From Jeotgalibacillus malaysiensis (lineage in GTDB: Bacteria > Bacillota > Bacilli > Bacillales > Jeotgalibacillaceae): a DNA stretch of 64,000 nt. Under the pieces are notes generated by a model that saw only the letters and a list, made by a program, of their open reading frames with translations, ran no database searches and had not been told where the DNA came from. Position numbers and translations under genes: made by a program. The stretch lies in contig CP009416.1 in the NCBI GenBank assembly GCA_000818095.1, positions 321,501 through 385,500 of the forward strand. Reading direction: 5' to 3'. Position 1 is the first letter of the stretch. Each line of letters starts with the position of its first letter. This document shows, piece after piece, positions 11,593-12,844 of the stretch.

Positions 11593-12243
11593 ATGCGCGC
11601 ACATTTAACAGTAGTAAAAGAACGGCAGAATGAGAGTGTGGAAGAGGTTATTCAAAAGCTTCAGGCTTACTGCAGATGGCTGACAAAGGATAAGTGGGAC
11701 GGGGAAGAGATCGCTCAGGAAGCGCTTCTGAAGGCGTATCGCGTTTATCCGGAAGAGCGATGGAAGACAGCACTATTAAAGAAAATCGCTTATCACCTCT
11801 GGGTTGATCAGCAGCGTACCAGAAAAACGATGGCAGCTTTTCCTGCAGAAGAAGGGTCCACGGAGTCCCGACTTCATGATATTGAGGAACTGCTCGACGC
11901 ATTGACAAAGCGCCTTACACCAAAACAACTGATCTCTTTTATTTTAAAAGAAGGATTTCAATACAAAATATCCGAGATTGCAGATCTTCTGAACATGACT
12001 GAACCTGGTATCAAAGCACTGCTGAATCGTGCACGCAGAAGATTAAAAGGGATGTCCGAATCTGACATTCAGTCATTTTGGGAAGAAGAGCTGTATGACG
12101 AATTATTCCCGGTCCTGGTTGATGCAGTCTCCATGCAGGACCCGGAAAAGCTTTTAGCGATGCTGCCTGCGATCTTTACATCATCTGCCGCTCTCCCGAA
12201 ACGGACTGCTGTCCCTTCACATCGTCTCTCACTAGCAGCGTAA
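11593..12243 (+). CDS. Sigma-70 family (ECF-like) sigma factor ending in Ser-Leu-Ala-Ala
   Basis: 216 residues from ATG 11593, preceded by GAAGGAGGG; the upstream extension has no ribosome site. Region 2 is at about 17-80 (Glu-Glu-Ile-Ala-Gln-Glu-Ala-Leu-Leu-Lys-Ala-Tyr) and region 4 at about 100-155 with a clear helix-turn-helix (Ile-Ser-Glu-Ile-Ala-Asp-Leu-Leu-Asn-Met-Thr). A 60-residue tail follows and ends Ser-Leu-Ala-Ala, the same last three residues (Leu-Ala-Ala) as the ssrA degradation tag. No anti-sigma gene is adjacent; instead a clpP paralog begins 16 bp downstream. The tail may be a degron read by ClpXP, which is inference. Confidence 0.85.
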   Translation: MRAHLTVVKERQNESVEEVIQKLQAYCRWLTKDKWDGEEIAQEALLKAYRVYPEERWKTALLKKIAYHLWVDQQRTRKTMAAFPAEEGSTESRLHDIEELLDALTKRLTPKQLISFILKEGFQYKISEIADLLNMTEPGIKALLNRARRRLKGMSESDIQSFWEEELYDELFPVLVDAVSMQDPEKLLAMLPAIFTSSAALPKRTAVPSHRLSLAA

Positions 12244-12259
12244 GAAGGGGGAAGTGGAC

Positions 12260-12844
12260 ATGGCGACAATTCCGTATGTGATTGAACAATCCAGAAATGG
12301 AGAACGTTCCTACGACATTTATTCACGTTTATTGAAAGATAGAATCATTATGGTCAGTGAGGAAATTAATGATCATATGGCAAATAGTATTGTGGCACAG
12401 CTGTTGTTTCTTGCAGCTGACAATCCTGAAAAGGAAATATCGCTTTATATTAACAGCCCCGGTGGTTCCACCTCAGCAGGTTTTGCGATCTATGATACGA
12501 TGCAGTACATTCAGCCGGACGTCCGCACGATCTGTACCGGCATGGCCGCCTCATTTGGCGCGATGCTGCTGATTGGCGGGACAAAAGGAAAGCGGATGAC
12601 GCTGCCAAACAGTGAAGTCATGATTCACCAGCCACTCGGAGGTGCAAGGGGGCAGGCGACAGATCTTGAAATTTCAGCAAAAAGAATTCTGAAGCTGCGC
12701 AAGCATATCAATGAAATCATTGCGGAGCGAACAGGGCAGCCGATTGAAAAAGTTGCAGCAGATACGGATCGTGATTATTTTATGACGGCAGAAGAAGCGC
12801 TTGGGTATGGGATTGTGGATGAGATTATTACACAAAATAAATAG
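12260..12844 (+). CDS. clpP: ATP-dependent Clp protease proteolytic subunit, second-type paralog
   Basis: 194 residues from ATG 12260 with AAGGGGG upstream (GTG 12254 is too close to it). All parts of ClpP are present: Ser98 in Gly-Met-Ala-Ala-Ser-Phe-Gly-Ala-Met, His123 in Met-Ile-His-Gln-Pro and Asp172 near Asp-Arg-Asp-Tyr-Phe. Compared with the canonical Bacillus ClpP remembered by me, the stretch after the catalytic Ser differs (Phe-Gly-Ala-Met-Leu-Leu-Ile-Gly-Gly) and the C-terminal tail is short. The usual housekeeping clpP stands elsewhere in Bacillales genomes, so this is probably an accessory copy, tied by operon structure to the sigma factor. Confidence 0.9.
   Translation: MATIPYVIEQSRNGERSYDIYSRLLKDRIIMVSEEINDHMANSIVAQLLFLAADNPEKEISLYINSPGGSTSAGFAIYDTMQYIQPDVRTICTGMAASFGAMLLIGGTKGKRMTLPNSEVMIHQPLGGARGQATDLEISAKRILKLRKHINEIIAERTGQPIEKVAADTDRDYFMTAEEALGYGIVDEIITQNK

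Follow-up and report, generated by a model that had tools for sequence, protein, structure and literature searches.

We analyzed a 64,000-nucleotide stretch of the Jeotgalibacillus malaysiensis genome (contig CP009416.1, positions 321,501 to 385,500, forward strand; hereafter the window) for a two-gene operon in which the gene of a sigma factor with an ssrA-like C-terminal end is followed by that of a ClpP paralog (Table 1). The clpP paralog had been predicted to start 16 bp downstream of the sigma gene, and the coding-sequence coordinates confirmed this gap (12244–12259). The operon is flanked by a GNAT acetyltransferase gene upstream and a convergent major facilitator superfamily (MFS) transporter gene downstream; therefore no anti-sigma gene adjoins it, none being present among the neighbor genes, as the original prediction had also stated. 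The stop end of the MFS gene falls within the terminator-like hairpin that follows clpP, and this hairpin was absent from the list of a consensus terminator scanner. ClpX is encoded in the J. malaysiensis genome.

Region 4 of the sigma protein (PF08281, residues 99–151) scored 36 bits, over the cut-off, and is followed by a tail of ~65 residues ending LSLAA, in agreement with the long tail and SLAA end first proposed. Region 2 (PF04542) scored 19.4 bits in the window protein, under the 24-bit cut-off, and was over the Pfam cut-off in the relatives L153 and L154. An AlphaFold model from an 85-row alignment (mean predicted local distance difference test score, pLDDT, 84) contained the sigma helices, and its best Foldseek matches were extracytoplasmic function (ECF) sigma factors. 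Region 4 and the likeness of the model to ECF chains lead us to assign the protein as an ECF sigma factor. The NCBIfam label PRK06704 was dropped (99 bits against a 256-bit cut-off).

Two helices in the tail (residues 165–181 and 185–195) were modeled with high pLDDT, and residues D183 and P184 are nearly invariant in orthologs. Model confidence was low over residues 201–216, as would be expected for an exposed tail. The C-terminal extension has a median length of 69 residues (range 55–111) in the 85 aligned proteins. SigJ-type profiles align with the sigma protein up to residues 190–197, i.e. into the tail helices, and no Pfam match to a SnoaL domain was found in it up to an E-value of 1. A SnoaL remnant in the tail, hinted at by the profile overlap, was left as conjecture for want of Pfam support.

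Table 1. Features of the sigma–clpP operon and its surroundings, in window coordinates
Feature	Coordinates	Strand	Remarks
Promoter-like element CCCATATCTTTT-N-CGTTA	11532..11561	+	Predicted reader, the sigma factor itself; ortholog upstream pattern
Ribosome-binding site AAGGAGGG of sigma gene	11578..11585	+	Read from sequence, strong
ECF-type sigma factor gene	11593..12243	+	216 aa, ATG start, end ...HRLSLAA
Tail helices after region 4 (...QDP..LL..LP)	12085..12177	+	Residues 165–195, conserved in orthologs
Variable linker ahead of C-terminal end	12178..12225	+	Linker residues 196–206, 12% mean pairwise identity
Degron-like C-terminal peptide LSLAA-COOH	12226..12240	+	Ala-Ala in 118/129 orthologs
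ClpP paralog gene (ClpP2 type)	12260..12844	+	194 aa
Terminator-like hairpin, then T-rich stretch	12850..12898	+	Closes two-gene operon; fold -21.7 kcal/mol, z -4.4
VWA-domain protein gene, unrelated to sigma–clpP	15459..16871	-	Acidic N-terminal part; lipoprotein signal by eye

Conservation of the Ala-Ala end and linkage with ClpP2

A protein search gave matches in 170 of 397 genomes of the order. Matches were taken by E-value down to ~2e-22, and one weaker match (G070) and six named loci were added. clpP lies directly downstream in 133 loci, giving 129 orthologs after four duplicate proteins were dropped; the count excludes L127 (clpP upstream), L150 (a decayed pair) and eight homologs that have no clpP. 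Ala-Ala ends 118 of these proteins, ten more end in VA (6), AS (3) or TA (1), and one ends in SV. Persistence of Ala-Ala in clpP-adjacent orthologs had been proposed as a check on the original prediction, which passes it. The commonest last three residues are MAA (77) and LAA (21), with Pro at -9 in 87 and Leu at -5 in 84 proteins. Mean pairwise identity, computed on 83 of the 85 aligned rows with the long relatives L153 and L154 left out, was 49–51% in the sigma domains (51% in region 4) and 32% in the tail helices; it fell to 12% across the linker and rose to 94% over the last two residues. All four Ala codons (GCA, GCT, GCG and GCC) are in use at both positions, and both common stop codons were found after them; the codon variation points to selection at the protein level. 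The estimated sigma–clpP gap varies from 14 to 104 bp among orthologs, so the C-terminal end is not a coupling signal.

None of the 26 other region-4 frames of the genome ends in Ala-Ala. Such an end was found in 8 of 368 background frames, six of them copies of the sigma factor (leaving 2/362); this background consisted of open frames of at least 150 codons in the fetched loci, some perhaps not genes. The sequence comparisons show that the Ala-Ala end of the sigma factor is selected and not due to chance. The tag of the genome's own transfer-messenger RNA (tmRNA), translated and read by eye, is ...KQDYALAA followed by two stops; the tag reported by ARAGORN, VRTPVSWHKLR, was rejected as implausible, the frame ending KQDYALAA being likelier. 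The last three residues of the sigma factor, Leu-Ala-Ala, are those of this local ssrA tag, which bears out the likeness originally noticed. As far as sequence and model tell, the protein has the exposed C-terminal Ala-Ala of ClpXP C-terminal substrates.

ClpP was searched in the same 397 genomes. A close class (ClpP2) comprised 131 genomes (E 1.9e-93 or better), the next matches being 4.7e-91 and weaker. In a tally of genome lists entered by hand, all 131 have a sigma gene adjoining clpP: 125 are among the 133 sigma–clpP loci, five were checked separately, and G277 has clpP first. Two sigma-bearing genomes fall under the class line, namely G155 (decayed pair) and G332 (L153, ending SV). More divergent sigma–clpP pairs retain the end as MMAA, LMAA, VCAA or LAS. 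The window ClpP scored 326.8 bits against TIGR00493, over the cut-off, and is 69% identical to the genome's other full-length ClpP (in L001). Aligned to the ClpP of PDB 3tt7, the motifs around the Ser, His and Asp that we take to be the catalytic triad are intact. G197 and G244 each have three close ClpP matches; other sigma–clpP genomes mostly have two.

Across the class Bacilli, 398 genomes were searched with a profile and 77 gave matches. We classified 86 non-duplicate sigma-like frames (90 minus four duplicates), made up of all listed matches outside the order, the weaker matches within it, six further pairs from the order and seven outgroup picks. Among the 47 frames with same-strand clpP, 22 end in AA, 23 in VA, CA, AS or SA and two otherwise (L259 and L304); with divergent clpP (8 frames), seven end in AA and one in VA. 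Where no clpP lay in the stretch (31 frames), the end was ordinary in 26, AA in four and VA in one. Sigma factors near clpP mostly keep such ends though their extensions differ, by eye, in length and sequence. The sigma tail in one genus of another order is rich in Gly, Ser, Met and Tyr, and MVA takes the place of the terminal MAA (MVA-ended loci: L249, L250, L260–L263, L265–L267, L269, L270, L274, L286, L287, L289 and L295). L304 (G597, frame 1778–2416) is one open frame that joins sigma regions to a C-terminal portion of ClpP; to judge from this frame, it seems to be a sigma–ClpP pair collapsed into a fusion, each short of a part.

A promoter element before sigma and clpP

A conserved promoter, CCCRTATCTTTT-N-CGTTWA, precedes the operon. 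It consists of CCC[GA]TATCTTTT and, 15 or 16 bases past GTATCTTT, CGTT[TA], with a median of 37 bases from CGTT to the start codon. Of the 126 regions upstream of orthologs, 121 contain the pattern, at the 15/16-base spacing in 117 and at a short, probably false spacing in four; the other five show near-forms by eye. The 126 are the 129 orthologs minus three without an assigned start codon (genomes G315, G296 and G335), which carry the element in the genome-wide pattern search. In the J. malaysiensis genome the window copy is the only convincing one found. A second match there (L200) has no CCC, is antisense within an open reading frame (ORF) and was judged to be chance. A relaxed pattern gave no match in this genome, but its -10 form also excluded the known site, and the result carries little weight.

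The strict pattern CCSRTATCTTN{14,15}CGTTW gave 122 matches over the 397 genomes. The sigma–clpP locus accounts for 75 of them, spread over 74 of the 131 ClpP2 genomes, and 12 more lie at other sites in ClpP2 genomes; the remaining 35 come from 33 of the 266 genomes that lack ClpP2. The last group amounts to ~0.13 per genome, near chance level, and two of its matches (G155, G279) sit at decayed sigma loci. Nine of the 12 off-locus matches were inspected (G189, G005 and G036 being left out). Those that look real lie upstream of an epimerase-like gene (G171, G196, G384), an MFS transporter gene (G385, G366, G094) and a gene that is serine-hydrolase-like by eye (G237); those in G008 and G031 fall inside open frames and have the look of chance matches. 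From the small number of off-locus copies in these genome sequences, the sigma regulon seems small.

The genes behind the element at these loci are epimerase-like in two families (L201, L202, L206), MFS in one genus (L203–L205) and serine-hydrolase-like (L207). At L209, whose genome is not in the ClpP2 class, the element is followed by a gene that is VOC-like by eye. Decaying modules were also seen. In G155 (L198/L150) the sigma gene is truncated and clpP partial, though the promoter element is intact; in G279 (L208) the element is intact and no sigma-like ORF starts behind it. At L193 (G270) the sigma frame is broken into two pieces, and the promoter, the LSLAA end and clpP are still there.

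That the sigma factor targets its own gene and clpP is best supported by the promoter copies on both genes where the two are separated or divergent. G277 is a natural REARRANGEMENTS (one locus), with clpP and sigma as separate units that each have their own promoter copy. At the eight divergent loci, all from one genus of another order, the element lies before clpP in seven, before sigma in six and before both genes in six. All five AA/VA-ended sigma genes without clpP also have the element; it is absent from the four homologs checked that are of ordinary length and ending, without Ala-Ala. The fused frame of L304 has an upstream element of the form CGTATCCATT...CGTTTT. The feedback through ClpP suggested by the original prediction gains support from this conserved operon promoter, which is usually twofold where sigma and clpP part.

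Proteolysis as the proposed brake on sigma

We propose that the sigma factor most likely activates its own gene and clpP and is kept at a low level by ClpXP. It is quite probable, in our judgment, that the two genes form an autoregulatory module with proteolysis as the brake in place of an anti-sigma factor. The operon anatomy, the conserved end, the linkage with ClpP and the conserved promoter, which stands before both genes in most separated loci, are the observed parts of this scheme. Recognition by ClpX, sigma self-activation and a capacity-sensing logic would complete it. The disordered C-terminus ending LSLAA would serve as an ssrA-like degron recognized by ClpX, and ClpXP would keep sigma scarce. 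Sigma that escaped would take RNA polymerase to a single main promoter type, the one before its own gene and clpP. When ClpXP was overloaded, inhibited or lacking, sigma would build up and amplify itself and more ClpP would be made; the extra protease capacity would then remove sigma and reset the loop. The capacity-sensing step is suggested by analogy with PopR, ClgR and yeast Rpn4.

Across the class Bacilli, the sigma lineage could be a dedicated sensor of spare ClpXP capacity, a sigma-factor counterpart of the proteasome–Rpn4 loop; we see the case for this wider proposal as evenly balanced. The sigma factor would compete with ssrA-tagged and damaged proteins for ClpX, and overload would lead to its escape, self-amplification and the making of more ClpP until it was degraded. 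The regulon would be tiny, often sigma and clpP alone.

In Bacillus anthracis a clpP2 gene follows a sigma-70 gene, and published work reports that clpX deletion raises clpP2 >300-fold; an earlier array cited there had sigma-70 and clpP2 both nearly 200-fold up without clpX. A rise of 200–300-fold without clpX is what a self-amplifying sigma factor freed from ClpXP should produce, and the proposed module, if true, would account for this induction. It would also give a reason for the second ClpP that many Bacilli retain and a mechanism for turning it on. The design would be a simple one, a positive autoregulatory loop gated by a protease for which the module itself supplies a subunit, and the protease capacity of the cell would be matched to demand. 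The promoter pattern could serve as a reporter of ClpXP overload, and a C-terminal degron may replace an anti-sigma factor throughout a lineage.

Several observations weigh against this proposal. The ortholog at L153, with clpP at 17 bp, ends LSV. At L259 (G046, minus strand 1332–2674) clpP comes first and overlaps a sigma gene whose product ends DDGR, a possible variant without the degron. AA or VA ends are kept without clpP in the fetched stretch at L242, L245, L271, L299 and L306, so the degron and clpP are separable. The promoter pattern was seen at 16 of a further 22 loci linked to clpP and not at the other six (L235, L237, L243, L248, L303 and L197); it is found before neither gene at the divergent locus L264 and is missing on the sigma side at L292. 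In a quick 117-row tree, which took in part of the order's orthologs, left out L304 and L193 and gave long-branch warnings, 6 changes (2 forced) are enough to account for the degron label, against a shuffled mean of 25.4. The degron group is, on this sequence tree, close to one lineage with few changes, so the association with clpP does not amount to many independent events. Equivalence of the B. anthracis operon to ours is apparently a matter of gene order and paralogy. Published B. anthracis primers fitted none of the loci tried (11, then 35) well, one primer having at best 2 mismatches in 15 genomes, and plasmids searched for the B. anthracis/B. cereus locus yielded no more than two weak, partial matches to sigma.

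Ala-Ala-dependent proteolysis could instead be the work of another AAA+ protease (ClpC or ClpE with ClpP, FtsH or Lon), with ClpX acting indirectly. Ala-Ala ends are recognized by more than ClpX, which speaks for this explanation. We nevertheless consider it unlikely. It is clpX deletion itself that is reported to give the >300-fold induction of clpP2 in B. anthracis, and sigma-AntA of Streptomyces albus, the proven ECF precedent, is reported to be degraded by purified ClpXP. In addition, the majority LAA/MAA ends and, in their last two residues only, the minority VA/AS ends resemble the two classes of C-terminal ClpXP motif that a review lists for E. coli. Less probable again is that the extension is a SigJ/ECF41-type regulatory domain acting by conformational control, with Ala-Ala kept for folding or contact. 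SigJ-type profiles reach residues 190–197, the model helices over 165–195 are confident, and the ECF41 extension touches the linker and is inhibitory, according to a review. However, no SnoaL domain was found, the poorly conserved linker sets the Ala-Ala end apart from the helices, and the same AA/VA end occurs on differing extensions elsewhere in Bacilli. Although the sigma stop codon is near the clpP start in most loci, constraints at the DNA level, such as coupled translation of clpP or the clpP ribosome-binding site, are a scarcely credible source of the conserved end. The codon variation already contradicts this explanation, as do the use of both stop codons, the spread of the gap and the retention of the end with divergent clpP (8/8) and at the five loci whose fetched stretch has no clpP.

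Comparison with known systems

Degradation of an ECF sigma factor with C-terminal Ala-Ala by ClpXP is already known from sigma-AntA, and Clp control of ECF115 has already been predicted. Sigma-AntA (ECF282) is an orphan ECF sigma factor reported to carry C-terminal Ala-Ala in 67 of 71 orthologs; the same work states that ClpXP degrades it in vitro, that Asp-Asp blocks this and that its levels rise without ClpXP. The window sigma factor is likewise an orphan ECF protein with C-terminal Ala-Ala. AntA differs in running an antibiotic gene cluster, and the available part of its description gives no clpP partner gene or clpP promoter loop. ECF115 of the Casas-Pastor classification, cited in the review PMC8999054, has a Bacillus representative and is described in that review as having a ~70-residue C-terminal extension and Clp proteases nearby, with degradation by Clp proteases predicted. 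The window sigma family also has a ~70-residue extension and a neighboring Clp protease gene (131/131 ClpP2 genomes), and is very likely ECF115, matched on description, not on profile or on the representative KOP67510.1. The accessible account of ECF115 makes no mention of an Ala-Ala end, a promoter or autoregulation. The conserved promoter, its two-copy arrangement, the class-wide end and an explicit sigma–clpP loop were not found in the open-license literature, which proves little, as the original ECF115 description lies outside it.

The sigma-70–clpP2 operon of B. anthracis and B. thuringiensis has two genes, sigma then clpP2, as here, and in B. anthracis is reported to be up ~200–300-fold without clpX; the excerpts available propose no mechanism or C-terminal motif. 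SigJ/ECF41 proteins are among the nearest homologs of the sigma factor by profile and, according to the accessible part of a review, likewise lack an anti-sigma factor. They carry a C-terminal SnoaL domain, whereas the window protein has no SnoaL hit and a tail of ~65 residues. PopR and ClgR of Streptomyces lividans form the functionally nearest loop to the sigma–clpP module. Both activate clpP operons and are themselves degraded by ClpP1P2, and changing the two C-terminal alanines of ClgR to Asp raises its level, according to a review. PopR and ClgR are transcriptional activators whereas the window protein is a sigma factor, and the two systems are likened by function only.
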